A stretch of 64,000 nt of DNA, taken from NCBI GenBank assembly GCA_020055645.1, contig CM034546.1, positions 9,672,001-9,736,000 of the forward strand. The letters run 5' to 3'. Positions 11,955-57,400 of the stretch are shown piece after piece; the stretch's first letter is position 1, and each line of letters starts with the position of its first letter. Position numbers and translations under genes: made by a program. The stretch is from Tomocerus qinae (Eukaryota > Arthropoda > Collembola > Entomobryomorpha > Tomoceridae). The notes beneath the pieces are model-generated. The model had not been told where the DNA came from. It did no database searches and was given only the letters and a program-made list of their open reading frames with translations.

Positions 11955-14059
11955 TCAACATCCGACATTATTAAGATATCTTTTGTGATGGCGGAAATGA
12001 TCTTCGATGAAAGTCTGCACACAAAAGTGTGAGTGAGTGTATTCCTTTTGCATCCGCAAATTCACGTCGATCGACATCCCCTTATTCGGGTTCTCTCCCA
12101 CTCCTTTCAAAAGAGTTTCAGTTTTACAGAAATCTGCCAACATGTCGTCATGGGTACCCTACAACAGCAAAACATCTGTCATTGCCAGGCATCGAAAATA
12201 TAAATATTTTGAACCGTTCACCATCTATTAAGTAGTAGCAGAGCGGATTTATGGGATTTTCTAATTTGTCTGTCTGTCTGGCGACACAATAACTCAAGAA
12301 TGGTTTGAGATAGTCAGTTTAGACTTCCTGTACGTAATTTTGAGTTAAAAAGTAATACCAAGTTTAACAATGGACAAAATCAGACACATTCCCTGCCAGT
12401 GGGCGTGCCTAAACCAGGAACCTAAAAATGGACGAACATGTCTTTGTGCCATTGTAGAAAGTTGTGTAGTAGCCCAATTGAAAGAGGAAAAGTTCAGAGA
12501 CCCAAATGAGTGGTAAAATAGGTACATCCCCTGGCTGGGGGAGTGGCAGTATCCGGAAAAGGTAGGTGTGGACATATTGGATAAAATGGTTTTTATCCAC
12601 TGGAAAAAATGATTTCATCCGGACAAAATGGTTATGTCTTGTGGACGAAACGGTTTTTTCCAGTGGACAAAACTAATCTAATCCGGACAAAACGCTAACC
12701 TGGGGAGTGGACAAGAATCGATTTAATTTCCGCTACTTCGTTTATTATCATGTGGTTTTTTAATTGTGCAATTACTTGGTCGACTAAAATGTCTCTGTAG
12801 GGTCCGTCGTAACGCTTTATGAGTTCGTAGCTGTCGTAGTTGTGCCATTGGTAGCGATTATGATTTCCCAGGAAAGCTGCATATGCCGGTTCAGAAGGTT
12901 TAGAATTGCTTGGGTTGCTCGTTGGAGCAAATGCAGAGATGGAAGAAAAAACATCAGGGTTCCGCAATCCAGCAATTATCGCTCCTGAACCGCCCATACT
13001 GAAAAATAATTGTAAAAAATGCTTTACGCTATAGCAATACAATTTCTCAAGAAAATTAATCAAGATATTAAAAAATAAATAATACCTATGTCCACATATT
13101 CCTATTTTCCCAGTTGTGTTAAAATTATTTTTAATTAACTCAGGAAGTTCTTTGGTAATATACGAATACATCTTATAATTCTTGGACCAGGGCTCCACCA
13201 ACGCATCTAAATACCAACTCGCAGATTTCTACAGTATAATGATATATATTTAATTATAGTTTAAATTGGATTAATAGTGGGGGCAGATCCCCCCTAAATC
13301 TGAGAAAAAGAGAAGATGTTTCCCAAAATAGGCCAAAAACTGCGAATATGTCCCATTTTTGAGATTATTTTTGGTTGCGCTCCCTTGATAGATATATCTG
13401 GATATGTGCCTGTGTTAAACTGTATGAATTTTATGATACAATTTAAGATTTTGAATTAATTAATTATGGAATAAAGATTGCAATAATTATAGAATTGATC
13501 ATAGATTTGATCTTAATAAATTATATAACTATATTCTTTGAATTTCTCAATATTAGTTAGAATACCAAAGTGGTTCAGAGCAGAAGGATACTGATTTAAC
13601 ATACAATAAGTAACAATTATTTTGACCAGAAATTCATGTAACATAATATGAAATTCAATTTTGGTACTTGCCCCTAAAAGCCAATGGTCACTATCTCCTG
13701 GAATGTCCACATGTCCTAAAAATAGAATGTTGCATAACATTTACTTGTGTACTATATTTATTTTATAATGATAATTGATGGCTATAATTACTTGGACTGG
13801 TATCAGGACCAACAAGAATGAATCTGTGATCTCGTGCGTATTTCTGCGGACAGAATTTCATAATAAAATTCTGTTCATTGCAGGTCGCTCCAGATAGGAA
13901 GAATAGAACATCGAAAAGTTCTCCCCTTGTCTTGGGTTCTGGCTCGTAAACCGAAATCTGCATTTTGCAGTTTAACACTTTGCTCTGATGTCCATAACCC
14001 CGATGGAATCCTCCGAAACACTTCTCCTTCCAACTCTCTTCCAAAGCAGCCTTCGACAT
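11955..14059 (-). CDS. ESD: S-formylglutathione hydrolase (esterase D), five exons
   Basis: Exons on the minus strand are 14059-13792, 13715-13672, 13228-13086, 12998-12776 and 12158-11955, giving 293 residues (human esterase D has 282). The enzyme hydrolyses S-formylglutathione to formate and glutathione, the last step of glutathione-dependent formaldehyde detoxification in the cytosol. Family landmarks appear in order: KCFGGF near the N-terminus, LNCKM, SGATCNEQNF, PDTSPR across intron 1, YLDALVEPW, MYSYITKELP, the nucleophile GHSMGG (its Ser codon is split by intron 3), SAFAPTSNP, DQGTHDD with the catalytic Asp (joined across intron 4), and the catalytic His in YTHSHF near the C-terminus. 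Intron 2 only keeps the frame if its donor is GC (GCAAGT at 13671-13670). Introns 2 and 4 contain repeat insertions. The gene looks intact. Confidence 0.93.
12540..12712. repeat. Repeat with TCCGGACAAAA / TCCACTGGAAAAA units in ESD intron 4
   Basis: Short units (TCCGGACAAAATGG, CCAGTGGACAAAA) alternate several times. The same arrangement, preceded by AGGTGTGGACA, occurs at 41085-41255 inside the minisatellite element, so it is an interspersed repeat rather than part of the gene. Confidence 0.6.
13275..13400. mobile_element. Fragment of a G-rich MITE family in ESD intron 2
   Basis: Features such as CCCCCCTAAATCTGAGAAAAA, a GGCC-centred A/T core and a far end resembling TATCTGGATATGTGCC match, in reverse, the element at 49068-49250. 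I see no clear target duplication here. Confidence 0.5.
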
Positions 14060-15693
14060 TTCGTAGTGAAATAATGACTGAAGTATTATTTCTGTGGTAC
14101 GTAAAGATGGTAGTGGAGAATTGCGAAAGAAACTTCTAGAATGACAGACAATTAAAATGCAGGCCGGTGGGAAAATATTTAGACACTTCCTGGATCAACT
14201 CATAAACTGACAGGGGAGCAAAAAATCCTGATTTTTTATGCTCCGTATACATACACACGTGAACCTGCTTCGCTCGTGGCGTGGAAAGTGGAGGAACGAG
14301 TATGAAAACATTAATACACGATTCCAATTCACATGCAGGAGTTTAAAGGATTACTGTCTTTCTGTTTCTGTACACCACAAAACCCTTTACATGACTACAT
14401 TCCAAAAGTTTGAGCTACAACTGGTTTCAAAACAAAAATGTTTATATATGTAACCAAGACCGATGCCAGAGGAGTGTTTTGAGCCCCGCCCCGACATCGG
14501 AGAAAAGTAGAAAATTTTTGTATCAAAATGCAAACATTCTTCGCCTAAATATAGTCTACATTTACATTTATATTTTGTCGAGCCCCCACAAATGTTTCTC
14601 TGGCTGCGGTCATGTATTTAACTTCGGTTTTTTTCGTCGTAGAAGGTTGTCCAATAAATAGCGACAGCAAAAGAGGTTCGGGGAAACAGTTCAATTCTCC
14701 CCTGAAATAATTAAAAGCTAGGATTTTTTTGGAACAGTACGATTGTAGTAAATACTTTTAGTTGAATGTTAAGCAAGGTTTGAATGTTTTCAGATGATCT
14801 CCTGTCTCCTGTACATTTATATTTCCGTTTTGCAATTAGAATTTTGCAATGTTTTACAATGCAACATTTAGAAGGAGAAATAGAAAAAGATATGATGAAT
14901 CAACTATGCATACATTATGCAGGGATTATAGGGAAACCGTTTCAGGCGACCTAACCTCATCCTCCTAACCTATAAGGACCTAAAGTAACCGTTAACTTGG
15001 CCAAATGCGCTTTACTGCTTTTTCAAGTAAATCCACGGTTACCAGGAAGGGTCCTGGTTCAAAATGATATAGTTCAGATAACAAAAAGCTAAGAGAGGAG
15101 TGAAGACTGGGTGATCATGTCTGATGTTACCCCATCGGGGAAAGTGCACCCTTACACGAAATCTAAGAAAAATATGTTTTCTCAAAATACCAAATTTCGT
15201 GCTTAATTCGGTTTTACAAGACTTAAGCTTTATTTGACTCATGTTTTGTAAAAAATAGCATTTTATCGCGCTTTCCGCGAATATACCTGTATGTATCTAA
15301 AAATATATGGCAATGACATCATTGATCCCTACGAAATCGAGTTTTAAATACGGTACCGATGATCCTCTGTATCTTTAGAACAGGAAGTAGTACAGCCAAC
15401 TGAGATGCACCATTAGAAATGCCATCCTAAATTGATTTTTCAAAAGATTGTAAAGGGTCTCTTGGCATCAAGTGTTTAAAAAATCGCAAAAATAAAAACA
15501 TGGCATGGCAAAGATATGGCGTTATTATTTTCAGCTAACGTAGGAGACTTATGTTTGTTATGTCATAAGCCCTAGCAAATTATTTGTAAAATAAATCAGT
15601 TTTTCCATTTTAGAAACTTTTGGGTCAACTCTCAAAACTTTTATTAGTCGGTTTAAAAATTAATTAATTTTACATTTAAATAAAAACAGTTGA
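14060..15693. other. Intergenic sequence between ESD and LIN37, no gene seen
   Basis: The short open frames here have no recognisable domain and no splice context that links them. The ESD promoter should lie at its left edge, since ESD is transcribed leftward from 14059. Confidence 0.5.
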
Positions 15694-15724: not shown

Positions 15725-17503
15725 TCAATCCTTGCAGTACATTCTCTCCAATATTTCAAAACTTTGTGCATATCTCTCTGCGTTGTACCTCGCAGCCTCC
15801 TTCCAGCGTCCACGAACGCTGATCCATCTTTGCAGATGCTCTTGAAAAAGAACTGCTGGAGAAGGGGCCATATGCCCTACCTAATAAAAATATTGATTCT
15901 TTTAGTTTTTAAATGAAATAAAAATGCCATTAAAACGAGAAAACAAAATAACGGTTTTTTAAATGTTTGGAAATGTGAACGAATAATGATATTACATTTT
16001 CACATGTTTTTTCATCAGCCTAATCATTTCAAATTTGCCTTAATTTCTGTCCCCTATTGCACAAAACTTTTGAAAGTCTATATCTAATACTTCCTGATTT
16101 GGGACCCTGTCCAGACTACTTTCAACGTAAAACGAACGTATGTTGGTCACCGAACACGTTATAAGTCTTCGGTGACCAACCGGGTAAAATGTTCAGTCAA
16201 CTGGTTGAAATCTGTATTAGCAAATGCCTAAATTAGCTGAAATGTCTAATGGCCTAAATCGTGAGCGAGAGCGAAGTATATTGGGACAATGATAACGATC
16301 TCTTAGATACGGTTTATAATATTTTAAGTACAATATCCTGGACAGATCTAATCCTGAAAGATTTATGCAGATTATGTCGTTCGGTTTGAAAAAATTCCAT
16401 GATTAGATAGAAATAAATTTCAATAAGTAAGGAGACTTTCGTTAGAAAGTATTGCAACTCGCCAAATGGTAAGAGAGGTGTTCTACCAAACCTTTCAGTT
16501 TCCAGGCTCTACCAAGTGACTTTTTAGATAATACTCCAAGAAATGGAGGATATGGCCCCAGAGGGGGTATTACACCCTTGTGGAATTTTTGTCATGAAAA
16601 TACGTCTATCAAGATTGTATATATTTACTTATAATGCTCACATCCTATCGTATATTGTGATAAGGGTTCAACTTACAGAATTGATTTCCCAAGCAATGTC
16701 AGACTTTAGTGACGGCGGCTGAAAAACTGGGATTCTTGGATTGTCTTTTTCATCTACCGGAAATGGGGGCGGCAAAACTCCAACTTCTTCTTCGCTGTCA
16801 GCCATTTCAGATTGGTCAAGTTCGTTGACAGGAGCCACCGTGTTGACATCCGACTTCATCCATGACCGGCACATCGGGTACATTGGTGTCGTCTCATCAA
16901 ACTGGACCAAGTTCACGGGGCGCTCAAAAAATTTGACAACAAAAGGTTTTTTCACCACTGCAGACGGAGACTCAGTAAATGAATTCAACTCAGCTTTGCG
17001 CGAACCTCTTCCACTCCCGTAGCTTCTAAAATAATAGTTGCCACACAGTTGTCAATTAACATAGATTCAAGCAGAAACTATTAATCTCCGAGCCACATAT
17101 TTTCATGCAAGGGTTAAGATTTAGACTTAATAACCCCTAACCTCTTTGGTTTGGGTAGCCTTGCTGGCGAATTGAAAAATGTCATAATTTCAAATTATTG
17201 TGCATGACAGTTATAGTAAGTATTCAACACTTACATCTGATTTTCGTTAAAAAGGTCGTCAAAATTGTCATCCTGAGTGTAGGAACTTGCAGCTGCTTGG
17301 ACACCCTTAAGTTTCTGCCAAAAGCGATTACGAGCCGTTAAAACACGTATTGTTTCTGAAAATATAGAAAAATCAATGACAACTTTGGAATGAAATTGGA
17401 AAAGTTATAGTTATAATTACTAGGCAAGATGCTTCAAAAATACTTTTAACCCGAATTTCAAACATTTTTTACCTTTGTATTTCCTGTTGGAGCTGGATGC
17501 CAT
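15725..17503 (-). CDS. lin-37: LIN37 homologue (DREAM/MuvB complex subunit), copy 1
   Basis: Minus-strand exons 17503-17473, 17355-17235, 17025-16677 and 15880-15725 encode 218 residues. LIN37 is a core subunit of the MuvB module, which with E2F, DP and pocket proteins represses cell-cycle and developmental genes in the nucleus. Two conserved blocks identify it: FVVKFFERPVNLVQFDETTP followed by MYPMCRSWM (compare VIKLF-R-VDL-QF--TPLYPICRAWM in vertebrate LIN37), and the C-terminal block LQRWISVRGRWKEAARYN with SFEILERMY (compare QRWK-IR-RWKEAS and KILREMY). Between them is an acidic, proline-rich linker (EEEVGVLPPPFP). Introns are GT-AG with phases 1, 2 and 0. The gene looks intact, unlike copy 2, and starts with MASSSNRKYK. 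Confidence 0.92.
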
Positions 17504-21621: not shown

Positions 21622-22710
21622 ATGGGACTTGGTAAGTAGATTAATTGATTTCAATCGATTTTTGAATTTTTGACGATATGTAAAAACAAAGACTACAAAA
21701 ACAGATTCTAACAATTCTAATATTTTATTGGTAATAAGTAATAACAGTAATTTGTGGAATAATTACCTGGTTGAGTAATATAGTTATATACAAATGAGTT
21801 CCATAAAAGTCACGATATTAGAACTGGAAGCCTTTTGGAAAATAAATTTTTCAGTTTTTGTAGAAACAAAATTTCATGAGGATAATCTCTTTCCACAAAT
21901 TTTAAATTGTTTTTCCAAACACATTTTTTACATTGAGTACAAAAGTAAAAATTTAAATACCTGTTTAATTTGGAATTTTTTGAAATGAAGGGTGCAGAGC
22001 AAGTAACGCAGACTGTTTTAACATGGTCCCTTACCAGTTACATCTGTAGAGAAATGCAAACATAGTCCAAAACACGTGGTGGGGAAAGGTCTGTAAAACC
22101 ATCGCGGCCTAGTGTGGTTCATGGACAATTTGGACAAGTACATGTGAATTACTTTACAAGCATTTCTCAACTCCGGGTTTTGGAGAACGTTTGCCCTTTC
22201 TACAGATGTACCTGGTAGAAGACCATGGTGGTAAATTCAAACAGTTTTCTATTATGTAGCCAGTTCTCAAATAAATTCAAATATACATCTCTATATTATA
22301 ATCGCAGACTTGATGTGCGTAATGTGCGTATAAATAGCATGTCAAAACTCCTAATCCAACTTGGTTTTCTGCTATATCGACAAACTTATTCAATATTTTT
22401 TAGTAGAGCTGGGTTTACTTTTTACCGCCCTCTTGATTCCATTGGGCCAGTTGGAACATCTTTTGGTAGAATGAAATAACAGTACTGGAGGCCAGAGCTA
22501 CTATTTATTCTATAAAAATATTTACTCGTAAGTTGTACTCATGGAAATTGTACGGTTTTCGAAAATCCCACGGGGAATCTTATTTATTTGATTTTAAATA
22601 GGAAATGTTTTGGTAACTTTGTGGGAGTTTTTTCGAAAATAGAGTTTTTCATTGTTCCCTGTATTTGATGCTACGAACTACAGTTATTAATTTGATGTAG
22701 GAAATTGATA

Positions 22711-22793
22711 TTTTCAATAATGTACCCCAACGCATACCTTCATTTGCTAAATTTAGTACATGGAGGTATGCATTGGGGTACATCATTGAAAAC
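22711..22793. repeat. Strong short hairpin in intron 1 of copy A
   Basis: Two 32-base arms (left beginning TTTTCAATAATGTACCCC, right ending GGGGTACATCATTGAAAA) pair with three exceptions around an approximately 18-base loop. It could be a tiny foldback element or a microRNA-like precursor. Confidence 0.6.
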
Positions 22794-22849
22794 ATTAATT
22801 CCTTTTTATCAGGAAGTTGGGGCTGCAGCTAATTTTTGCAACCACTGTA

Positions 22850-23068
22850 CAGCACCGTATTTAGAAATCGATTTCGGAGGGGGGAATGACGTCATACACT
22901 TATATGCATTAGGCTTATTCCTGCGAAGCGCTCAAAATTTTGGCTTATTTTGTCTAAATGGTTCAAAAATAGTCTAAAGCGAAATATTTTGGTGTTTTGA
23001 GAAAAAATTTTTCCCTTTTCTTGGATTTTGGGGGGCTGCTTCCTATGCCCCCCCTCAATACAGCCTTG
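22850..23068. mobile_element. hAT-type MITE, 219 bp
   Basis: The element is flanked by a perfect 8 bp target duplication CCACTGTA (22842-22849, 23069-23076). The ends are imperfect inverted repeats (CAGCACCGTATT and CAAGGCTGTATT inverted). The inner part, with TTTTGAGAAAAAATTTT and TCTTGGATTTTGGGG, resembles the interior of the element at 5439-6373. Confidence 0.75.
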
Positions 23069-23514
23069 CCACTGTAGAAAATAAAAGTATATTAATTTAA
23101 TTATAATTTGTATTTACAAAATTAACATAATAACCTAATGGGATGTTTTCGAAATTGTTTTAATTACTGTGTTGGGTGGCCTGCTGAATTTCTTTTGAAT
23201 GCTAGATTTGCCCCTAAGCTGGGTTCAATAGTCATATAATATTTGTATTAACAATTTTGAAATTAGTCCAACAGCATAGACACTTTGGTAAACCTAGGAT
23301 TAAGAATGACATAAACTTTGAAAGTTCTTCTTCCATTTTGCATTTTTAGGAGTCAGAAACGCATGGGTTACCGTCGCTGTTGACGATGCATCAGTAAGAA
23401 ATGCCATTGTTTTCGCAAAATCTCTTACCCTGGTTGTCACGGAAGCTGACACAGGGATATTAGATTCCAATGATATTTTCCATTCGGCTGGAGTGCAAAC
23501 CATTAAATCATTTA

Positions 23515-26964: not shown

Positions 26965-29280
26965 ATGGGGCTTGGTAAGTAGATTAATTGATTTCAATTG
27001 AGTTTTGAATTTTTGACGATTTGTAGTAACAAAGACTATAAACTAGTTCTGATATTCCTAATTCTAATATTATATTAGTAACATCAATTTGTAGAATAAT
27101 TACTTGGTTGAGGATGTATATACATATGAGACCGATCTCCATATTAAAACTAAAACTTTGGAAAATACATTTTCCAGTTTTTATACTCTCTTTTTATAAC
27201 CTCTTTCCACAAATTTTAAATTGGTTTTCCAATTGTAAACATTTTTTTATTTTCTACATTTTACAACACTAAATTTAAATTTAAAAACTTGTTTGATTGT
27301 TTGAGATGAAGGGTGCAGAACAAGGAACGTAGACTGTTACCAGGTCCCGTACTATAGATATATCTATGGAAAGGGTACTCGGACTTCTGGCTCAGGAAAA
27401 TTGTAATAAGTTTTGAACTATAGCGTTGGCAGGAAATCATGTTTTCCCGCTAACGCTATAATTGAAAATGTATTAATTTTTTTAATATTTCGGAGTCACA
27501 AGTTCCAGACATTCACCTTTCGCCACGTTTTAGAAATCCTGAAGACTTTTGGTAAATAAATAAGGGCCACACTCTATTCTTAAGTAATACCCACACACCC
27601 ACAGACTGTATGCTCAAGTCAACCCGCTATTACCCACCCTTAAGAATGACATAATTTGAAAATATTTCTTCTCTTTTGCATTTTCAGGAGTCAAAAATGC
27701 CTGGGTTACTGTCGCTGTAGACGATGCATCAGTAAGAAATGCTATTGTTTTGGCAAAATCTCTCAATCGTGTTGTAACGGATGCTGACACTGTGGTATTA
27801 GCTCCCAATGACATTTTCCAGACGACTGCAGGGTAAACCATTAAACCATAGAGTAGTAGTATTGCTTGGTCCATTATATTAATTCATTTAGTTTTCTATT
27901 CGTCAGCAATATTGTTAGACTGTCGTGTTATATAGTACTTTATGTAAAAGCTATTTTCTATTGCATGACAACTTTCGTTTATACTTTGATTATCTTCAGA
28001 AAGACATAAATTATTATGCTACACAACACACAAATTTAATATCACTATGATATTTACATTTCTGTATAAAAACCCGTATCGGTAAATATTAACGTATTGA
28101 TTATTTTGAAGACATTTATTTGAATACTTTGATGTCGTTCTGCCACAAAATATGGATACAACAAATGGAAAGGATATGGAATTTCTGAAAATTGTAGCAT
28201 GTAATCTGCAAATGTACTCCACGATCATCGTACTCAGCCCAAATAAAATGGTCAGTTTTAACTTATACTATTTAACATATTATTACTATTACAGTTTCTT
28301 TGTAACCCGGCGACGTTATAATATTTTCATGTTGAGATTATTTAAAATTTTAGGTGGTTGCAAACTGTGATGAACTATTCAATCTTGGCAAAGACTTTGC
28401 TGTTGCTTCCTTCCAAGATCATGAAAACGATTACGACATTTCACTTTTTGTCATAAAACCAAAATTTTATTTCACCAGTGGCCTGTCCAAAACATTGGGA
28501 CTAAATAATACGATAAATAATTGCTGTAAGTCGATTTAATTTGCTAATTGCTAAGTAGAAACGCTTATAAAAGTTAATTGCATGTCAGCATATAACAAAA
28601 ATTACAGCCTATGTCTTTCCATTTGTATTTTTCAAAGAATAAATTGATGACATTTCAAAGGATAATGTCATATCAATATAAGTACATTTATTTTTTCAAT
28701 TCAAGTAATTCTGATTGCCGAAGTTTTTAAATTTTTAGTGGCGGATAATTTAAAGAAATTTTCCCTTTCTGAAGACCGTCAAAGATTTTTCCATCATCTA
28801 TCAAAAGATTACAACTATAACATAAGTAAATCTCTTCCACAAATAAAGTAAGGTTTTTATCCATAGCGTACTTTCCGATGCCATTAGTTTATCAAACATT
28901 AATTATTGTACATTAAGGAGTATATCCAGAAATTTGGCCAAAAGGGGCACAAAAAATGAGATTTTGGGGGTTTTGCTTTGCTCAGGTCACTCTTCTAGAT
29001 ACGTGCATATGTTACAATCATTAAACACTTACTTGGTTTGTATATTGTTTGCCGCGAATTTTTAAGGAATCTTCATACTGCCAAAATTATCGACTTTGGT
29101 GACGTGGAGCATGTGAAGAAGGAAATCAAAAGCAATTATTTTGCAAATGTTAGACAAATATTAATTTTTTGTAACGAAAAACTAATATTATGCCTTACGT
29201 AGTGAAAATTCAAAATGTCATCTACTTTTGTAGGAAATAATTCAAGGTTGGATGTCGTTTTACGAAAGCGTCGTCAACAA
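26965..29280 (+). other. Glycogenin-like (GT8) head domain of the fusion, exons 1-7
   Basis: Glycogenin is the self-glucosylating GT8 enzyme that primes glycogen. The head follows it from end to end: AWVTVAVDDASVRNAIVLAK (compare AFVTL-NDAY--GALVL), LFEYFDVVL, then YSTIIVLSPNKMVVANCDEL where glycogenin has [20 protein letters not shown], then DISLFVIKP (NSGVFVYQP), LPQIKNL, TAKIIDFGDV (AKVVHFLG) and QGWMSFYESVV (WW-IFT--V-P). The metal-binding DxD is replaced by SPN, the DGGDQG loop is missing, and the His of HFLG is Asp, so it should be unable to bind Mn/UDP-glucose normally. The last head residues and the start of KS share exon 7, so the fusion is in the coding sequence and is not a mis-joined gene model. 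Confidence 0.85.
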
Positions 29281-32200
29281 CGTTAACATTGGGTCGCTAT
29301 TTGTATTTCCACAATCGCCATCAGGAAATTGTGAAAAACGTTATTATAAGGATTGTATAGTCGTTGTGGGTCAAAGTTGCAGATTTCCTGGAGCCAACAA
29401 CATTGACGAGTTTTGGGAGTTAATAAAAAGCGGTGGAGATGGAATCTGCCCAATTCCAACAGAACGCCTATACGACTTTCAGCAAAATGATCCTCGGTAT
29501 AATGAGTCCCGTGGGGGATTTCTGAAATGTCCAATTGATGAGTTTGATGCCAACTTCTTTGGGATTAGTCCCAGAGAGGCGACGCTTATGGATCCTCAAC
29601 AACGACTTCTGCTGGAAATAGCATGGGAAGCTTTGGAAAATGCGGCTATAAATCCACATTCTTTAAAAGGCAAGTAACTACTAAACGTTTCACTTTAATT
29701 TTAAGTATAATCAATCGTTTACATATAGTACAGTTATAAAATTGTTAGACGAAAAAAGCCCTATTGCAAAATTTGATGGGAAATGAGAATATCAGAAACT
29801 ATGGTTACATAATATTATAATATTTCATACTTTTAACAGGAGGAAACACTGGAGTTTTCACAGGTGTTTGGACTCACGATTACGAACGACTGGTGGTTGA
29901 AAATGCAACTGCACAAGATTTTCATCATGTGGTTCTTGGAAATGCATTTTCAGCAACATCTGCACGAGTGTCTTACTTTCTGGGATTAAATGGGCCCAAC
30001 ATAGCAGTTGAGTCTGGGTGTTCATCATCAATGATAAGTCTTCATTTAGCCTGCGAAAGCTTAAGAAAGCAAGAAACCAATTTATGTTTGGTTTTAGGGG
30101 CCAATATTTTACCTATTCCATTTCCATATTGTGCCGTTCCATTTTTAGCTAGCGATGGACATTGCAAAACGTTTGATGAAAAAGCGGACGGGTTTGGGAG
30201 AGCAGAAGGTGTTGCTGGAATTGTTCTGAAGAGGTTATCTGACGCCGTTAAGGACGGCGACAGGATTTTGGGGGTGATTCGTGGATCCGGTGTGACCAAT
30301 GAAGGAACTACTTGCAGCTTTGGAACGCCGAGCAAGCATTGTCAGGAAGTTGCTGTGAAGGAAGCACTAAAGAATGCTAAGGTGGATCCCAGAGAAGTGG
30401 ATTATGTGGAGGCTCATGGAACCGGGACACCTGTAGGTGATCCAATTGAATTTGCAGCGTTGTCGGCTGCTTATGGAATAGGGAAAAGAGAAAATCCGTT
30501 GTTGGTCGGCTCCGTTAAAACGAATACTGGGCACACTGAATCTGCAGCAGGGTTAGCGGGTGTTATCAAAGTACTTTTGTCTATGCAGAATGAAACCATT
30601 CCTCCACACAGAAATTTTAGTACCTTGAACCCAAACATTAATCTCGATTTGATTCCTGCAAAAATTCCTATTGAATGTCAAAAATGGATTAGAAATACCA
30701 AAAGACCACGAATTGCTGGAGTTAGCTCTTTTGGAATTAGTGGTGCAAATGTGCACGCAATCATAGAGGAACCGCCTTTGCGAAGCGATTTCTTCCATAC
30801 TATTTCACCAAACGAGAAAATCGAACAAAAACATCAAATCTTCACTATTTCTGCTAAATCAGAAAATGCCCTTTTAGATTTATCCAAAAGGTATATCGAT
30901 TATTTTGAGAGCAATCCAAGTGTTAATTTGGCTGATGTAGCCTATACTGCTAACAAAGGTAGAGCTGACTTTAAGTACCGAAATGCCTTTGTAGTAAAAG
31001 ATATTAAAGAGTTAATATCATCTATGGAGTCAAATACATATGAACCTCCAATACTGAACTCTGTCAAACCGAAATTGGCATTTCTTTTCACTGGACAAGG
31101 ATCTCAGTACGTCGGTATGGGAAAGGAATTTTACGAATCAAATGCAGTATTCCGAAATGCATTTGATCAATGCGAGTCCTACATTCAGAGAGCTGTTGGT
31201 ATTTCATTAAAAACTGCACTTTGGGATGAAACAAACCAAAGTTTATTAGAACAGACAATATTTAGTCAGCTCTCGATTTTTGTAGTGCAGTTCTCTCTGC
31301 TAAAATTATGGGAAAGCTTTGATATTAAAGCCAATTTTGTACTGGGGCATTCTATCGGGGAATATGCAGCTGCAGTAGCAGCTGGAATTTTAGAAGTTGA
31401 AAACGGGTTGAGTTTGATTATTGAACGGAGTAAACTGGTAGACACTCTTCCTGAAGGGGGCATGTTGGCTGTTAAGGCTTCAAAACATTTTGTCACAGAG
31501 GTAATAATAGAATTTTTGAATCTCAATCCTGATTTAGCTGTCGACATTGCTGGAATAAATTCCCCAAACGAAATTGTAGTTGCAGGATGTAGTCGTGCTA
31601 TTATTGCATTTGAAGACTTTTGTGTTTCAAAGGGCACTCAGGTTCTGAAACTTATAGCTAATCATGGATTTCACTCTCGGGCCATGGATAGTATTCTGCC
31701 TCAATTTCAGGAATTTTCTGATAGGTTGGCCTTTAAAAGTCCTAACTGTATTTATATTTCGGGCATGACCGGTGAAGTTTTAGCATCGGGAGAAATCGGT
31801 TCTTCATACTGGGCACAACATATGAGGGAAGCTGTGAATTTTGAAAGGGGAATGGAAACTTTATTTGAGCATGGATGCAACGTATTTGTAGAAATCGGAT
31901 CGCACCCTGTTTTGTTAGCGTTAGGAATGTCAAGCTTAAGTTACACAAGCGAAAGTATTTGGCTGCCTTCACTCAGAAGAAAAGAACCATGCTGGAAGAC
32001 AATTTTGGAAAGTTTAGGAAAATCCTACATGAATGGTTTACATGTAAATTGGAAGGCTTTAGATTTGTTTGGTTTTAGGAAAAAGGTTGAACTACCCACG
32101 TATCCATTCCAACGTAAAAAGTACTGGACAGAGTGGCAATACGATGAATTTTCTAATAGAATTCATCCTCTACTCGGTAAAAAGATTGTTCTATCTGACC

Positions 32201-35200
32201 CTAATGTTGTCATTTATGAAAATGAATTGAATTTGAAAGACTTTTTGTATATAAAAGATCATCAGGTGTCCAATTTAATTATTTTTCCAGCAGCTGGGTT
32301 TTTGGAAATTATTTTAGAATGCAGCAAGGATGTTTTGAAAGAATCAGGTTACGAAGGCATGACTATTTTAGACTTTTCTGTAGAAGCTCCTCTTGAACTT
32401 GAGGAAGAAAAGAAATACAAAATTCAAACGATGGTACAGCAATCAGATGGCGATGACAAAATCAAATTACAAATTTTCATATTTCAAGGTTTAAATACTT
32501 ATAACAACGAAAAAGGTTGGAAATTGTATGCTGCTGCTGTTTTAGCACCTGAAATAATCTCATTACCAAATATTAATCAAGCATTATCGAGTGGACAAAA
32601 GATTGACGAAATTAAATCACGTTGTAACTCAGAGCACAATGCGTCTGATTTTTACAAATATGCTTCTGATATAGGTTTAAATTTTGGGGAATGCTTTCAA
32701 AGTATCAAAAATGCCTGGAAAGGCAAAGATGAATTTTTGGTGGAAATCCCATTACCATTAAAGGAAAATAACGTCAGGGAGAATTATATATATCATCCAA
32801 TTATACTGGATGCTATGATTCAAGTACAGGCACTGAGCCTCAAAATTGAAGAAAAAGATTTGTACTTACCAGTTTTCATTGAAAAGTTCACTGCGATAAC
32901 GACATCTGAAAATTCAGAGCGTTTTTATGCGCACGGAATATTCGATGATGTTTCTTCTGGAAAGTTACTTCTTTATGACAACATCGGATCGCTACTAGCA
33001 GTTATGGAAGGCGTCCGATTAGTAAGAACCTCTGTAAACTCGTTTCTAAATATAATCCACCGAGCACAAAATAAATTACCTGGGATGTATCAAGAGGTTT
33101 GGCGATCTAGAGATTCTCCATTTAAATGTAGAGTCGATTTATCTATCAGTGCAGCTCACGACTCAAAAATAATTATAGGTAGAGAAAGGTCGCTTGGTGA
33201 AATCGAGTATCAAGCATATGCTAACGATTATGAGAATAGATTTTTTAGTCATCGCATTCTTAAATTTTTATTAGATCAAGGTTGGCATCCCAAAATAAAT
33301 GAAACTATTAATTGTCGCTCCTTTATAATTAACTGTGGATTTTTATTGTCTTTCGAGCAACTTATTAGGAGGTGCTTTGACATTCTTTCTGAAGACGGTC
33401 TGTTGAAAAAACAAGGATGCAATGAATGGATGATTATCCAGAATTTACCGACAGTCGAAGAGGTAAACGAAAGTATTGATAGATTGGATAAAGAATATGA
33501 TGAGCAAACAAACAAAAGTGGCCTTCAACCTGATAATCACGTTGTCCTACATATTGCTAAATATTGTTTTAGTCAGCTCCAACAAGTGTGTGTGGGTAGG
33601 GTAGCTCCCCATTCTGTTTTATTTGGAAATGAGGACCCGGATTTAAATGCACTAAAGATTTATTCTGATAGCTTAGAAACGCAATATGTTAATAAGGGCA
33701 TGGGTAAATTTATTCAAATAGCTTTTAAAGAGAGTTGTCTTAAAGGAAAGAACGAGAACTGTATTCTAAGAATACTAGAAGTTGGAGCTGGAAGTGGAGC
33801 AACTACTAAGGAAGTTATTGCAGCCCTTAAAAGTGGTGGAATTCCTTTTCAGTATACTTTTACAGATGTATCTCCACATTTCGTTAACGAAGCAAAAATT
33901 AAATTTGCAGATGAGAGCTATATTAATTTCAGAATTCTTGATATTGAAAAAGATCCTTTAGCTCAAAATTTTGCTCCTCATCACTATGACGTCGTTTTGG
34001 CATCAAATGTTTTGCACGCCACTGCCGTTTTACACGATTCAGTACGAAACATTCGCCTTTTACTAAGAAACAGGGGTCTTTTAATGCTGCAAGAGTTATT
34101 GACTCCTAATAGGGCTCTAGATATGATATTTGGGATCTTGGATGGATATTGGAGATTTACTGATTACAATATAAGGCCTAACCATCCATTTGCACCTAAA
34201 GAAGTATGGGATCAAGTGTTTGTAGAATCTGGGTTTACTGTATCCAATAACATATGTGTAGAAGATGTTAAAATATCTTTGCTTTTAACAAGAGTTGTTG
34301 ATTCTTTTGATATATCGTCTGCAGGAAACAGTTTATTAAAAAATAATACGTGGATTTTGTATTGTGATACTGATGGGATCTACAAAAAGTTAGCAGAAAA
34401 GTTAAGAACTGTAGGTCGAAATGTTTGCTTGATCAAAGATATCAATGATTTTAAAACAATTAAGGAAGAAGATAACTGCTTTGGCATTGACAGTTTGGAA
34501 ATATCCCAAGTCACGGAGTGCTTTGATGAAATTTTCAACAACAATAACGTAGAAGGCTTTTGCTATTTGAGATCTATTTCTGATTACTCCTCGGACGACC
34601 AGAAACGTATCTGTATTCCTATTTTGAATTTACTTCAGTGTTGCATGTCCAAAAACCGAAAAGTACCACGGTTTTGTGTAGCCACAAAGGGTGTTTATTA
34701 TAATAGTAATAAGCAAAAAATAACATATCCACATAAAGCTACTTTAGTTGGAATTATTAAATCTGCATTCAACGAAATGGGGAATTTGTCACAAACCAGT
34801 AGACTAGTAGATTTAGATCCAGACTGTAAAGATTTGGAAGTCACATGTGCAGAATTGTTTCAAGAGATATTTTCGGAAGATGATGGCTTCTGCTTGTACC
34901 GAAATAGTAGGAAATCTGTAGCTCGACTGTGCAAATTGCCAAAACCTAATGCACCATTGACGCTCCCGTCTGGTCGTTATACTATAGTTAAGCCTACTTC
35001 GAAAAAGATTGATGATTTGCAGTTTAAAACGATATCGAAACCTCAGTTAGGGACTAATGATGTTGAAATTCTCGTTAAGGCTACCGGAATTAATTTTCGG
35101 GATTTATTTGTTGTTCTTCAGCCAGAACAATATAAAAGTGCATATTCTGATTGTATTGGAACTGATTTTGCAGGTGTAGTTTCAGATGTTGGCATTTCAG

Positions 35201-38200
35201 TCACAAAGCACCGGGTGGGAGATAAAGTATTTGGCTGTGCAACTAACAGCTGCGCTGCTAGTCATGTGATTATAGATGAACGATTGGCTCTTGGAATGCC
35301 TAGTAATTTTACGTTTTCGGAGGCTTGCACTTTGCCATCGGTATTTCTTACTGCCTATTATTGCATGGTTAAAGTCGCCAATTTACAAAAAGGCGAAACC
35401 ATTTTGATCCATGTGGCATCTGGCGGAGTTGGATTGGTGGCCATACAAATTGCCAAACAAATAGGAGCTCATATTATTGCCACTGCAGGAAGTCATAGGA
35501 AAAGAACTTATTTAAGATCCATTGGTATTGAACATGTTTTTCACTCTAGGGATTTGACTTATGAACAAAATATAAAGAGTGTTACGGGTGGTAGTGGTGT
35601 AGATATGGTTCTTAATTCCCTGACCGGTCCTGGCTTTAAGGAAGCAACACTGCGATCTTGTAAGTCAGGTGGCCGCTTTGTTGAAATAGGAAAAGTGAAC
35701 ATTTGGAAATCTGAAGAAGTTATAGGCATTAGATCTGATGTACAGTATACAATTGTGGATGTAGAAGGGTTTGACAAAGTCAAGATGAAAGACCTTGTTG
35801 AAGTAATGGAAGCATACAACTGCAAGTTTAACATATCTCCATTGCCAGTTACAAAGTTTCCCCTTTGTCAAATTAGGGACGCATTAAATTATTTTGCAAA
35901 GTCTGAACACATTGGCAAAGTGGTTTTGACAATGCCAGAAATTAAAGAAATCAATGGTCGTTATTATCCTAGCCATTTTAATTTTGACGAGTTTGCAACA
36001 TATCTAATAACAGGAGGTTTAACTGGCATTGGGTTAGAAGTAGCCAAGTGGATGGTCGACTGTGGAGCAAAGAATCTTGTCCTAGTTGCTAGATCATCTC
36101 CAAAAGATGACGCTGTAAAAGTTTTAGAAAATCTAAAAAGAAAGGGTTGTCGAGTTGAGAATTTCCAAGTAGATGTAGGAGATTGGGAGCAGTGTTTACA
36201 GCTGTTCAACTCAATTCAATCTCTTAAGTACAAATGGCCTCCATTGAAAGGGATTATCCATTCCGCTGCTGTTCTTTCTGATGGAATGATAACAAACCAA
36301 ACATGGGAAAAATTTGAAGAAGTTTTTAATGCAAAAGTTTACGGAAGTTGGAATTTACACCGTCTGTCCGAAAATCTGAGGCTGGACTATTTTATTATAT
36401 TTTCTTCAATGGCCGCTTTAATGGGTTCTATGGGGCAAAGTAACTACTGCGCAGCAAGTATGTATGCCGACTCATTGGTATATTATCGACATTCCATTGG
36501 TCTTCCTGCACAAACTATAGACTGGGGAGCCTGGGCCACTATTGGAAAATCATCTGGAATGGATGCATTTAACAAAGGGCATTTTGGCATATCGTTCTTT
36601 AGTCCGGTACAAGGTATAGCTGCTTTGGACTTTATCATATCCAGGCCAAATCTGAAACAATTAGGTGTAGTCCAATTAAATCCACTAGAAATAGTTACCT
36701 CATTTGGAGACAAGGGAAACTATTTATCTGAGCTGATTGTGGAAGATGACAATTCATCCAATGTGTCTATTGCCACTTCAGAAGCATTTTGGTCAGAAAT
36801 AAACCCACTAGATTTGCCGGAACGCGTAAATTATATCAAAAAGCTGATTGAAAAGTTAATTAAAAAGACCTTGAGACTTCCAGAATCTGACTATTTAGAT
36901 GAATATCAAAATTTTTCAGATATGGGACTAGATTCTTTAATGGCAGTCGAAATCAAAAATAAACTTCAGAATATCTGTGGGAAAAAACTAACTTTGAATG
37001 CTACTTCGCTTTTAGACTATCCGACAATCCATTCTTTGAGCCAATATTTTGCAGAACAAACATTCACTATTAACGATTCCGGTTCTGTTCCTATAGTTAC
37101 AATGGCAAATGACGAAGAATTATTTAGACACGACTTTATCTTACCTACAGACATCCTATGTTTAAACTCTGAGGTTTTAAAGCCCTCGGAGATTAAAACT
37201 ATTTTACTAACAGGTTCGACAGGTCGCTTAGGTGTGTATGTTTTGAAGGATCTTTTAAAAAACCCTGATTTAAATGTTCGCTGTTTAATCAGAGGAAAAT
37301 CAATAGACCAGGCTCGGAAAAATTAAAAGCAGTTGTCAAACAATTCCAATTGGAAAACGAAATAGACACCGACCAGGTCTCAATAGTTCTAGGTAATATT
37401 GCGGAAGATAAACTAGGGTTTACTAGAGAAGATTATGATAATCTTTCAACACAGATAAATTCCGTTATTCACTTAGCTATCAAAGCAAATCACGTGGAGA
37501 AGTATGTGAAGCCAAAATCCGGAATAGCTGATATCCGTTCTGTCAATGTTGTGGGAACAATCAACATTCTTCGATTTGCTTCCAATATCAAAATAAAGAG
37601 AGTATTTTACTCTTCTACGTACTCAACAGTGAATAGATTAACAGACGACGGATTCGTTTATGAAGATTTCCCTGATGACAATAATTGTGGTGATCAATTG
37701 TCATTGGGCTACGTATTAACCAAATTCGTATGCGAAAAGTTATTAAAACAGGCAAATGAGAGAGGAATTCCTTGCACAGTGGTTAGGTATTTAGAATTGA
37801 CCGGGGATAGTCAAACCGGAGTGTTCGCAATAGATAAAAATTCTTTCTTGAACTTTTTACAAATGTGTGTCCGTTATGGCGTCATAACTGACTTAGAGGG
37901 TGGTTGGTGTTTCATGCCGGTAGATGTTGCATCGCAATTGACTGTTAATTTGCTATTTAATGACGATGCAGTTACGGGAATTTACAATTACACACCGCCT
38001 TCTCCGATGTATACACAGGACTTTGTTGAAGTTTTGTCGGGTATGGGTATCCACTTAGATGTAGTAAGTCTGGAAGAAATGGAAAGCAGGATATTGAGTG
38101 ATAGCGAAAATGATACCTGGGTTAATATATTCACTAGTGCATATGGCATGGATATTAAAAGCTTCCTTTTCAGTTCTACAGCCGTGGGTTCTTTATTAAA

Positions 38201-38357
38201 GGACAAAAAGCGGGTGTATCGAATCAGTAAGAAAGTTTTGAAAGGTAATCCTGACTTTGAAAGTAAGCTTCCTGATGGGAAAAAGGTCTTGACGCGATAC
38301 TTGGAATATGCACAAAGAGTAGGAATGGCAAAAGATTTACAGCAGCCGAAACAATAA
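26965..38357 (+). CDS. Pseudo-glycogenin fused to reducing PKS with terminal thioester reductase, copy 1
   Basis: Exons are 26965-26974, 27688-27832, 28112-28250, 28354-28525, 28739-28847, 29067-29148, 29234-29669 and 29840-38357; all phases fit. The product is about 3200 residues. Residues 1 to about 240 are glycogenin-like. PKS domains follow: KS from about 258 (Cys425 in ESGCSSSM, then HGTGTPVGDP and TNTGHT); AT (Ser869 in GHSIGEY, HGFHS suggesting malonyl use); DH (His1172, Asp1355 in LDAMIQ); C-methyltransferase (LEVGAGSG near 1677); ER (HVASGGVGLVAIQIA near 2222); KR (TGGLTGIG near 2422, Ser2554, Tyr2567); ACP (Ser2730 in MGLDSLM); thioester reductase from about 2819 (LLTGSTGRLG). A full reduction set plus methyltransferase predicts a saturated, possibly methyl-branched chain released by NADPH reduction. 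The DH motif has Asn where Gly is usual. Intron 7 uses a GC donor. In the reductase the frame shifts by one base at an A run (37318-37322), so a stop falls at 37324 and the last 335 or so residues are in another frame. Confidence 0.9.
28918..29005. mobile_element. MITE fragment in intron 5 of PKS copy 1
   Basis: Ends resembling ATATCCAGAAATTT and TCTAGATACGTGCA belong to the family seen at 49068-49250 and 13275-13400. It is absent from the matching intron of copy 2. Confidence 0.45.
37198..38357 (+). other. Thioester reductase domain with a frame change
   Basis: The Rossmann start LLTGSTGRLG is in the main frame; after the A run at 37318-37322 the reductase continues in the -1 frame (LGNIAEDKLG, VNVVGTINILRFA, SSTYST, then Tyr and Lys of GYVLTKF) to a stop at 38357. 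Both halves belong to the same domain family, so a base appears to be missing from the A run (five instead of six). AATAAA overlaps the final stop. Confidence 0.82.
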
Positions 38358-47589: not shown

Positions 47590-48017
47590 TGTAATGAAGC
47601 TCCTCACTACGGGGTTATGGGGATGAATGTAGCTAGTTCAGATAGTATGAGCAATTGGTAGGTCGCCCAGGCGCCAGGATGACATGATGACAATGACATG
47701 ACCGACGAAATAATGACGACTCACCACTCTTGGACTACATGTCAACGGCCAACTATCCAATCTTTATTTCAGACTTCTTCCTTCGACTCGATCTCTGTGA
47801 GTCTCTGTCCGTGACTGAGTGACTGTACGACTGAGTGCTCTTTCATACATTTACATTACTTTTATAAAGCTACAGACTCATTCGGCTGAGCTCATTCACT
47901 CTTATTGGCTACGCCAATATTCAAATATTCCCCTTAGCGCTATTACTACTTTACTACTAGAGTACATACTATTGCAGGACACAACATAATACTGCTTACT
48001 CCTAAATAACCATTACA
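47590..48017 (-). repeat. 5' LTR
   Basis: 428 bp, identical to the 3' LTR as far as I can read. The TSD AAAG follows at 48018-48021. Confidence 0.92.
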
Positions 48018-48734
48018 AAAGCAATGTCAGACTTTAGTGACGGTGGCTGGACATTTGGGATCCTTGGATTGCCTTTTTCATCTACCGGAAATGGGGGCGG
48101 CAAAACTCCAACTTCTTCTTCGTTGTCAGCCACTTCAGAATGGTCGGGTTCGTTGAAAGGAGCCCCTGTGTTGACATCCGACTTCATCCATGCCCGGCAC
48201 ATCGGATACATCGGTGTCGTCTCATCAAAATGGACCAAGTTCACTGGGCGCTCAAAAAACTTGACAACAAAAGGTTTTTTCACCACTGCAGACGGAGACT
48301 CAGTAAATGAATTCAACTCAATTCTGCGCGAAACTCCCCCACTCCCATAGCTTCTAAAATAATAGTTGCCACACAGTTGTCAATTAACATTAAATTAAAT
48401 TATTAAGTTACAGAGCCCCATATTTTCATGATAAGGTTTAGAGATAGAGATTGACATTGAAATTACATTTTGCATTAAAATCACATTGAAATAATGACAT
48501 TTCAATGTGATATTAATATGAGACAATGACATATTTTTTGACGATATTTCACATTCCAACATTTTACATGGGTTTCCAAATGTCATTGTAAGAACTATTT
48601 CGGATATTGGTTAATACTAAAAATTTGAATATCGTAACTTTTTTAGTTTACAAAATGCAGAACAATTATTTTTTCCCCTTTAATCAAACATGGCAGTCAT
48701 TTCTTATTCAAGGAATTTTTCTTGAAAAAGAAAT

Positions 48735-49055
48735 ATTTGAAATTAATGAAATTATTGAAATAAATGAAATTATTGAAATAAATGAAATTATTGAAATAAA
48801 TGAAATTATTGAAATAAATGAAATTATTGAAATAAATGAAATTATTGAAATAAATGAAATTATTGAAATAAATGAAATTATTGAAATAAATGAAATTATT
48901 GAAATAAATGAAATTATTGAAATAAATGAAATTATTGAAATAAATGAAATTATTGAAATAAATGAAATAATTGAAATAAATGAAATTATTGAAATAAATG
49001 AAATTATTGAAATAAATGAAATTATTGATATTAATGAAATTATTGAAATAAATAC
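48735..49055. repeat. 18 bp tandem array in intron 2 of LIN37 copy 2
   Basis: The unit GAAATTATTGAAATAAAT is repeated about 17-18 times with few changes. Since 18 is a multiple of three, all frames stay open, giving repetitive peptides (EIIEIN) that are not genes. Copy 1 has no such array in its intron. Confidence 0.9.
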
Positions 49056-49067
49056 AATGCGCAATTC

Positions 49068-49250
49068 AGGCACGTATCTAGAAATTTGTTCAAGGGGGGG
49101 CGGAAGGTAAAATTATACCAAAAATAAGACATATTCGCGCAAAAGGCCTAAAATTTTGCAATTTTAGGCCATTTTTGAGAAAAAAATTCTCTTTTTCTCA
49201 GATTTAGGGGGGGCGCTGCGCCCCCCCCGCCCCCTACTAAATACGTGCTT
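49068..49250. mobile_element. G-rich MITE with GCACGTATNTAG ends
   Basis: Inverted ends GCACGTATCTAG and GCACGTATTTAG (inverted) flank G and C runs (AAGGGGGGGC; GCGCCCCCCCCG) and a GGCC core. Relatives are at 13275-13400 and 28918-29005. The target duplication is not clear. Confidence 0.65.
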
Positions 49251-54457: not shown

Positions 54458-57400
54458 ATGGGGCTTGGTAAGTAGATTAATTAACTTCAATTGAGTTTGG
54501 AACTTTTGTCGATTTGTAGGAAACAAAGATTAAAAAATTAAAAACTAGTTCACATACTTATATAATATTACATTTGTAACAGCAATTTGTAGAATAATTA
54601 TATACTTGGTTGACGATGTATACATATGAGTCCGATCACGATATTAATGCTAAAAGAATTTTCTAAAAAAACTAAAGCTAAAAGACTAAGAGTTTCTATA
54701 GGAATAAAATTCCATGAACAAAATCTCTTTCCACAAATTTTAAGCTGTTTTTCCAATCGTAAATATACATATTGTTGTATTTACATTTTATTTTTATTGT
54801 GTTGTACATTTTGGAACACAAAATTAAAATTATAAAACTTGTTTCATTTAAAATTATTTAAGATGAATAGTCGAGAACCACGAACGTAGACTTGTTGCCA
54901 TGATTCCCTACTATAAGTACATCTTTTGAAAGGGATAAACATCGTCCAAAACACGGAGTGAGGAAAGGGCTGTAAAATCATTTCCGTTTACTTTGTAGTA
55001 AAAAAAATCCAAACGGTTTTAGCTGGTTCATGGGAAAGTAAATGCAATCACTTTACAAGAATTTCCACACCCTGGGTTTAGGACGATATTTATATTCAGT
55101 TTGTAAAAAAGTGGATAATAGTATCAACCCCGAGGGACACTACTATTCCCACGTAGCCAAGAAGTAGTATAAATACACTCTTCCCAGGCGTACAGGGAAT
55201 CCGGTTTGGGGGCATGGGCGTAGTAAACTCTTTTACAGAACAACCTCAACTTTTCCTCATCAAAATGACGAAAATTTGGTGTTTTTCAAACATCAGCTCT
55301 GACATTTAACAGAACATTTATCCAGTCGTAGTGCAGGCAGTATTATATTATTAACAATTTTTAAATTAGCTGAACAGCATTTTGGTAAACCTAGGGTTAA
55401 GAGCAGTGTTCCATTTTAGCCGGCTAAAAATGATTTTGACCAGCCAGCCGGCTAAATTGGCTGAAATGGCTAATGGCCAAAATGGCCAAATATCATGGGT
55501 TCACATAGCCCCGTTTGACTATTTTTGGCCATTTTAGCCACTGGCTAAAAAGAATTTCATCCAGCCGGCCGGCCATTTTAGTCAGCCATTTTAACCAACC
55601 AGCCGGCTGGTCATCGAACACTGGTTAAGAGTGGTTAATAGCGGGATAACTTTCGCATACATTTATTGCGTGTATTACTTAGGATTGGAATGTAGCCCGT
55701 ATTTATTTACCAAAAAAGCCTTCAAAATGCTCGAAAGCCTTTGCTCCTTTGCCCGCTATTAACCACCCTTAAGAATGACAAAATTTGAAAACTTTACGTC
55801 CCTTTGGATTTTCAGGAGTCAAAAACGCATGGGTTACTGTCGCCGTCGACGATGCATCAGTAAGAAATGCAATTGTTTTGGCAAAATCCCTTGCCCGGGT
55901 TGTCACGAATGCTGACACTGTGGTTTTAGCTCCCAATGACATTTTCCATTCGACTGGAGGGTAAACCATTAAAACATTATGTAGATATAGTAGTATTGCT
56001 TGGTTGATTATATTAAGGGAAAAATGGAATTCGTATGGCACACACCTTAATTTTGTATGAGATTTTGAAAAATAGTTTATCTAACTTTGTATGGAATTTA
56101 TGAATAATGTGAGTAATGGTAATCAAATCGAGTAATAAGCGAGTATTATAATCGGCATTATTGTCGTTTTAGATCTTTAGAGGTTTATATTTAAATGTTT
56201 GCTTAACCTTCAAGGGTAATAATGTTTCAGTCTCTATATAAATTCCTGTCCAAGTCTGTGAAACCCTTGCCTTCTTTTTTTTCATTTTCTTTATCACTAT
56301 CGTCACCGTCAGTGTCACAGTCACTATCCGTTTTGTATTGCAAACTAACAAATTTATTGACCCGACCATAGTCCTTGTGTTCACAGAAAGGCAACTTGTA
56401 ACGAAATACATGCAACACAAATACAGCAGACAAGAATCACAGATAACATGTTAATTATCTAGATAATGTCAGAACCCAGAACAATGACTTCACTTCTCTG
56501 CATAACTATGCATTCCTCCTGGCTATTACAGTTTCTATTTGGGTCTTATTACATATTATTCGTGTATATCTCCCATACATATACATACTTCCATACACAT
56601 CCAAACGTTCAGCTCTTTTGAACACCATACCAGGTAAAAGTAAATGTCAATAATTCCGCCATACAGAATTAAGGTGTGTGCCATACGATTTAAAACGCAC
56701 CCTTATATTAATTCATTTAGTTTTCTAATTCGTCAGCAATAAGCTGGGGAACTTTTGAGCATCTGCACGTCTGCACCTGCTGCTCAAAAGTTAAAAGGAA
56801 CTTTTGAGCACCCATGCAGCATTTGGTACAGGTGGGCACTTTATAAGCCACCTGTCACTATTTTTGCCTTTTTTCTAACCTAACCTAATTAAAATTAACA
56901 TAATAGAAAAAAATGCTTGGTTGTTTCAATTTTATTAGGTTAGAAGGTCAAAAAAGAGGCAAATACTGACTGGTTTTGAAAATACTTAGTTTGTTGCCTG
57001 ATTTTTGCACTGGGAAAAAAATTTCCAGTTACTGCGTCCCGTTTGCAGCAACCCAACCATGAAATACGTTATTTGTAAAGCGTCTGGCATGGCCTGGCAT
57101 TCATGGCATGCCCACCTATCTGTGCCAAGTGCTGCATGGGTGCTCAAAAGTTCCTTTTAACTTTTGAGCAGGTACAGATGCTCAAAAGTTCCCCAGGTAT
57201 ATTGTTAGGCTGTCGTGTTATATTAATACTTTATGTAAAAACTATTTTTATCACTAGAAAACTTTCGTTTATACTTTGAATCACGTCAGAAAGAAATAAA
57301 TAGTTATAGTTATGCTACAACAAACAATACAAAATTCAATTCACTATGATATTTACATTTCTGTATAAAACTGTATCGCTCAATATTAATGTATTGATTA

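Follow-up and report, generated by a model that had tools for sequence, protein, structure and literature searches.

A glycogenin-derived, probably inactive glycosyltransferase domain heads a family of reducing polyketide synthases in Tomocerus qinae

The genome of the collembolan Tomocerus qinae encodes reducing type I polyketide synthases (PKSs) that are preceded in the same reading frame by a glycogenin-like head, and this fusion gene has been amplified to roughly one hundred copies. Two copies were found in the window, i.e., the 64,000-nucleotide stretch of DNA analysed here (C1:9672001-9736000). We propose, with a probability of about 0.6, that the head is a pseudo-glycosyltransferase which these reducing PKSs have retained as a structural, and perhaps dimer-forming, module; their product would be released as an aldehyde or alcohol. 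The literature searched, mostly open-access, gave no description of a glycogenin-PKS fusion, and works pairing both words were unrelated; an earlier note on this DNA had likewise known of no described PKS with a glycogenin head. In fungal enfumafungin-type triterpene cyclases, a glycosyltransferase domain shares a polypeptide with the central enzyme of a lipid pathway (PMC8403587). That system is a terpene cyclase and not a PKS, and glycogenin is not mentioned in the part of the paper cited here. The Tomocerus architecture, without description in the literature searched, amounts to about a hundred giant synthases built, as it appears, on a captured metabolic gene in one arthropod genome. It offers an intron-readable case of a PKS becoming joined to an animal gene and, if the head is indeed inactive, a large natural series of one pseudo-enzyme.

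Copy 1, on the forward strand, has seven short exons encoding the glycogenin-like GT8 head, followed by a long exon with the domain order KS-AT-DH-MT-ER-KR-ACP-TR. In the spliced model, exons 1-7 (26965-29669) have GT-AG borders and are in frame into exon 8, with the start codon ATG at 26965. Exon 1 (26965-26974) is only the 10 bp ATGGGGCTTG and ends in a phase-1 donor; the identical 10 bp recur at 54458, nine of ten positions match at 21622, and the flanks at these sites are alike. According to the glycogenin alignment the head starts in exon 2 (27688-27832). It continues through exon 3 (28112-28250), which ends at the former DxD site, now S-P-N, exon 4 (28354-28525), exon 5 (28739-28847), with I-S-K-S-L-P at the former acceptor-tyrosine site, and exon 6 (29067-29148). 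Exon 7 (29234-29669) encodes the end of the head and the start of KS (from about 29351), as the earlier note had claimed; spliced frame and Pfam agree on this. The junction of exons 7 and 8 is GC-AG instead of GT-AG.

Exon 8 of copy 1 (29840-37326) runs from KS to the start of TR. Its domain coordinates, converted from residue numbers of the Pfam matches, are AT 31081-31992, DH 32164-33033, MT 33775-34083, ER 35053-35928, KR 35995-36537, ACP 36847-37047 and TR start 37207-37317. The frame changes near 37.31 kb and reaches a stop at 37324-37326, while the rest of TR is encoded in another frame on the same strand (37311-38357; Pfam NAD_binding_4, E 5.5e-31). This frame change at about 37310 may be either real or an assembly error; the TR of copy 2 has no such change.

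Copy 2, also on the forward strand, spans 54458-67836 in window coordinates and thus extends beyond the window end; its 3′ part was taken from the host assembly. Exon 1 (54458-54467) consists of the same 10 bp as in copy 1 and is followed in the spliced model by exons 2 (55816-55960), 3 (57409-57550), 4 (57649-57823), 5 (58140-58248), 6 (58396-58477) and 7 (58571-59009). Exon 8 measures 8507 bp, occupies 59330-64000 within the window and continues to 67836, open through TR. Altogether copy 2 comprises 3202 codons without a stop. The second copy with the same exons that the earlier note had reported is hence confirmed, and the single frame from GT8 to TR claimed there holds through copy 2, whereas in copy 1 it is shifted within TR. 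In both copies the whole PKS part except the KS start lies in one giant exon. A partial copy was found at 21622-23486 (+), with an exon-1-like (21622-21631) and an exon-2-like sequence (23350-23486) in which the exon 2 donor is changed; tblastn found no exons of this copy beyond 1 and 2. On the opposite strand, a LIN37-like exon occurs twice, 31.3 kb apart, at 16671-17051 and 48005-48379 (Pfam E 6.5e-18 and 5.8e-18, respectively). Each precedes a copy or fragment of the PKS gene, and a segmental duplication is the probable cause.

Pfam places KS, AT, DH, ER, KR and ACP in a single chain. Compared by eye with known motifs, the KS Cys-His-His, AT GHSxG and ACP DSL motifs appear to be present, and the DH motif appears to have Asn for Gly. 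The presence of a single module suggests that the enzyme acts iteratively. MT may C-methylate the chain, KR, DH and ER would fully reduce it, and TR would release it reductively as aldehyde or alcohol. From this domain order, methyl-branched lipid-like products are expected, and the family is a likely source of arthropod lipids.

Among PDB chains, the exon-8 protein matched mycocerosic acid synthase best (9d2z, E 3e-210), scoring better with this bacterial enzyme than with either animal fatty acid synthase (FAS, E 1.2e-120) or the sacoglossan animal FAS-like PKS (AFPK) EcPKS2 (E 3.6e-105). Mycocerosic acid synthase is the nearest solved relative, and with it the bacterial type I PKSs that act iteratively rank among the closest known systems. 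The glycogenin head, the methyltransferase and the terminal thioester reductase set the present enzyme apart from mycocerosic acid synthase. The best prokaryote KSs found were about 50% identical. In a KS tree of seven own and 80 bacterial sequences, built without FAS or AFPK rows, the own KSs formed one group (100/100) on a long branch, and no close bacterial donor or sister was resolved among the 80. The PKS was likely acquired horizontally. That the fusion itself was inherited from bacteria was rejected, as no GT8 head above noise was found in 36 bacterial reading frames (best E 2.1), examined from the 80 loci kept out of 309 confirmed. Since these 36 frames are headless and the head is animal-like down to its introns, the fusion probably arose within animals.

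AFPKs are likewise animal type I synthases. They have been described by the thousand and are widespread in arthropods. According to the text cited, a few of them end in a reductive (R) domain, as the present enzyme does with TR, which takes the place of a FAS-like thioesterase end (PMC10764717). The word glycogenin has no occurrence in the main text of that paper. The springtail Folsomia candida is likewise an arthropod rich in type I PKSs, with 30 type I PKS clusters called by antiSMASH and most genes of 36 clusters called horizontal transfers (PMC5490193); glycogenin does not occur in the main text of this paper either.

The head was assigned by comparison with solved structures and with the glycogenin gene of the host. 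In a single-sequence phmmer search of PDB chains, residues 7-143 of the roughly 245-residue head matched glycogenin (4ueg, E 3.2e-5), and glycogenin-2 and glycogenin-1 were the top matches. The host glycogenin gene is located at C1:83795026-83799697, and its product aligns with the head by BLAST at E 1e-14 and 23% identity. Pfam GT8 (PF01501) gave no match at E<=1 in the heads of copies 1 and 2. The full-length GT8 domain postulated in the earlier note is thus borne out as to its glycogenin homology, but the domain is shortened and escapes the Pfam profile. Across most of its length the GT8 domain of the head is similar in sequence to human GYG1 and GYG2 and to the host gene, and the head has the intron phases of the host gene. 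It differs in having lost DxD and, in the copies read, the acceptor tyrosine, in being shorter before the DxD strand and in lacking the C-terminal tail that binds glycogen synthase; in copies 1 and 2, KS follows about 20 residues after the GT8 end.

Host glycogenin gene and head have the intron phases 1,2,0,1,2,0 in the same order. In a local MAFFT alignment that ignored introns, the four placeable internal intron borders of head and native gene lay 1, 0, 2 and 1 columns apart. With two other MAFFT modes the first two borders were again 1 and 0 columns apart, and the last two (fourth and fifth introns) 11 and 16. The first acceptor shares its phase in head and native gene and lies within one codon of a common Trp, whereas for the sixth border there is phase agreement only, the following native exon not having been found. 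A duplicated glycogenin gene with its introns retained is the simplest account of the head. The spread in intron positions leaves the fusion reading unchanged, because homology, phases, genome-wide linkage and frames are independent of that alignment.

To describe the catalytic site, we read exon 3 in 63 heads (51 fetched as one set and 12 others), which are related sequences, so that counts do not represent independent events. L186-L188 (exon 3 unrecognised), L189 (partial, E-P-N), L053 (same locus as L155) and L054 (A-P-N) were excluded. Both aspartates of DxD are kept in three heads and lost as a pair in 60; counted singly, the first aspartate persists in 12 of the 63 heads and the second in 13. 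The three D-S-D heads, L150, L161 and L181, form one cluster near C1:57.7 Mb (57.69-57.72 Mb) and may have either retained or regained the pair. Copies 1 and 2 both have S-P-N. The earlier note had called the domain catalytically dead, and loss of DxD extends to most of the heads read. The adjoining strand is largely kept (Tyr 56/63, Lys 53/63, Cys 48/63). All 63 heads are 5-17 residues shorter than the native protein ahead of this strand. Human glycogenin GN1 glucosylates itself at Tyr195 (PMC11046441). At the acceptor site the native TYSYLP is replaced by ISKSLP, ISNSLP, ISNSLP and ISKALP in copies 1 and 2, L038 and L039, respectively, i.e., the tyrosine has become Ser in all four copies read.

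The head nevertheless appears to be under purifying selection. Its dN/dS ranged from 0.12 to 0.34 in ten of ten pairs among five copies, compared with 0.06-0.16 for KS in the same pairs; where L040 is one of the pair, dS is saturated (1.6-3.0; 143-150 codons). Constraint is weaker in the second half of the head, with a dN/dS of 0.455 between copies 1 and 2. Moreover, exon 3 was open, with a donor right after the DxD motif, in all 51 full exons fetched (50 GT, 1 GC). With DxD and acceptor tyrosine lost, the strand residues mostly kept and purifying selection acting in the pairs tested, the head has the appearance of a pseudo-glycosyltransferase still required by the cell.

The same observations bear on whether the head matters at the DNA level only. 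Capture of promoter, start codon and spliced 5′ exons of a glycogenin gene would then have allowed expression of an intronless PKS gained by horizontal transfer, with the protein domain as a passenger. A PKS mostly in one giant exon behind a head with glycogenin-like introns would fit this, as would the decayed catalytic site. However, the constraint on the head in 10/10 pairs is more than a passenger needs, and an exon 3 that is open and has its donor in 51/51 cases goes beyond such needs as well. We consider a mere passenger unlikely.

We favor the pseudo-glycosyltransferase as a retained structural module, in which both levels would play a part. A glycogenin-derived head is joined, at its seventh exon, to a type I reducing PKS. 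It would provide the start of the gene, with promoter, start codon and spliced 5′ end, and the PKS behind it was probably acquired without introns. As a protein it would form an N-terminal structural module ahead of KS, and its most likely role would be to bring two PKS subunits together in the way glycogenin, an obligate dimer (PMC4330554), associates with itself. The dimerization scaffold considered in the earlier note is thus plausible. Against it, type I PKSs are known to dimerize through KS, so that pairing does not require the head. In the ten pairs compared above, the heads change faster than their own KS, as a recognition surface would. A bolder but improbable extension is that about a hundred diverged heads act as a pairing code, directing each synthase to itself or to chosen partners, so that the many giant PKSs of one animal are kept apart or are combined for new sets of products.

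Alternatively, the head might be an active glycosyltransferase that needs no metal and adds sugar to the enzyme or to what it makes. The second DxD position is most often Asn (40/63 heads), and GT6 enzymes carrying NXN require no metal for activity (PMC4330554). Three heads keep D-S-D, and copies 1 and 2 have an Asp at the GDQ site or two residues off, according to which alignment is used. Against this, the first DxD position varies freely (N 17, D 12, S 10, Y 9, H 8 of 63), every head is shortened ahead of the strand, and the acceptor tyrosine is absent in the four copies read. An active transferase thus appears improbable; because of the GT6 precedent we call the loss of transferase activity likely and no stronger. 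Still more improbable is that the head serves as a docking or targeting site tying polyketide synthesis to glycogen or glycogen synthase. The earlier note had considered such a glycogen tether or docking to glycogenin and glycogen synthase, for which homology to glycogenin is the single argument. It is unsupported, since the copies read lack those portions of glycogenin to which glucose and glycogen synthase attach, and copies 1 and 2 have lost both acceptor tyrosine and DxD.

The fusion, presented in the earlier note as one gene with a second copy, turned out to be a genome-wide family. Searching the 334-Mb genome with KS of exon 8 gave at least 133 matches at E<=1e-3, which merged to at least 126 loci. 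Counts are lower bounds, as the best 127 of 172 KS candidates and the best 147 of 179 head candidates were scored. Head exons were searched with three queries, the first of which gave 151 matches, 150 of them used. A glycogenin-like exon was located within 12 kb upstream on the same strand in 95 of the 126 KS loci found; the head matches behind this number reach E 0.24, 0.89 and 4.0 by query, and the weakest rest on position and strand. On the opposite strand no heads were found within 12 kb of the 126 loci, neither upstream nor downstream. Downstream on the same strand there were eight at 12 kb and none at 8 kb, as expected from the next tandem copy. Heads were found at 89 of 96 loci with at least 60% KS identity and at 6 of 30 loci below, where the queries are weak. 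No head was detected at 31 of the 126 loci, seven of them with at least 60% KS identity. Among loci with an open frame of at least 2800 codons, 49 of 56 were headed.

Conversely, for 57 of the 63 heads a KS match lies no more than 12 kb downstream, the position of L049 being approximate. The exceptions are L143, L144, L148 (12.6 kb), L151, L178 and L048. L048, at C4:7136260-7136553, and the five others may be lone heads, broken genes or cases of a missed KS. In five of five further loci, picked by head match, KS follows the head exons. In L041 and L042, KS is continuous with the upstream frame and not split by the exon 7/8 intron, and in L045 the KS exon also encodes, by eye, a glycogenin-like last helix. 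Two adjacent genes joined by wrong splicing can hardly explain an order, strand and frame shared by copies 1 and 2, a KS behind the head in 5/5 other loci, 95/126 KS loci with heads and a KS exon in L045 that appears to carry the GT8 tail; separate genes were therefore rejected, in line with the earlier note, which held that the fusion is no annotation artefact.

Some KS loci depart from the common layout. At C1:34011944-34020535, two KS matches of 45% identity lie 7.6 kb apart, both with a 3769-codon frame; these and a like pair on C100 are perhaps headless two-module synthases. Seven KS loci at C1:71.88-72.49 Mb have shorter frames of 2348-2385 codons and perhaps lack one domain.

Further features were noted in the window. 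Esterase exons (PF00756) lie at 12698-14194 on the reverse strand, a long simple array at 48592-49110 translates as repeated NEIIEI, and a piece of a 7tm_7 chemosensory receptor scored below the cut-off (23.4 vs 26.6 bits). This piece fits an arthropod, as do the TTAGG arrays present in the genome.
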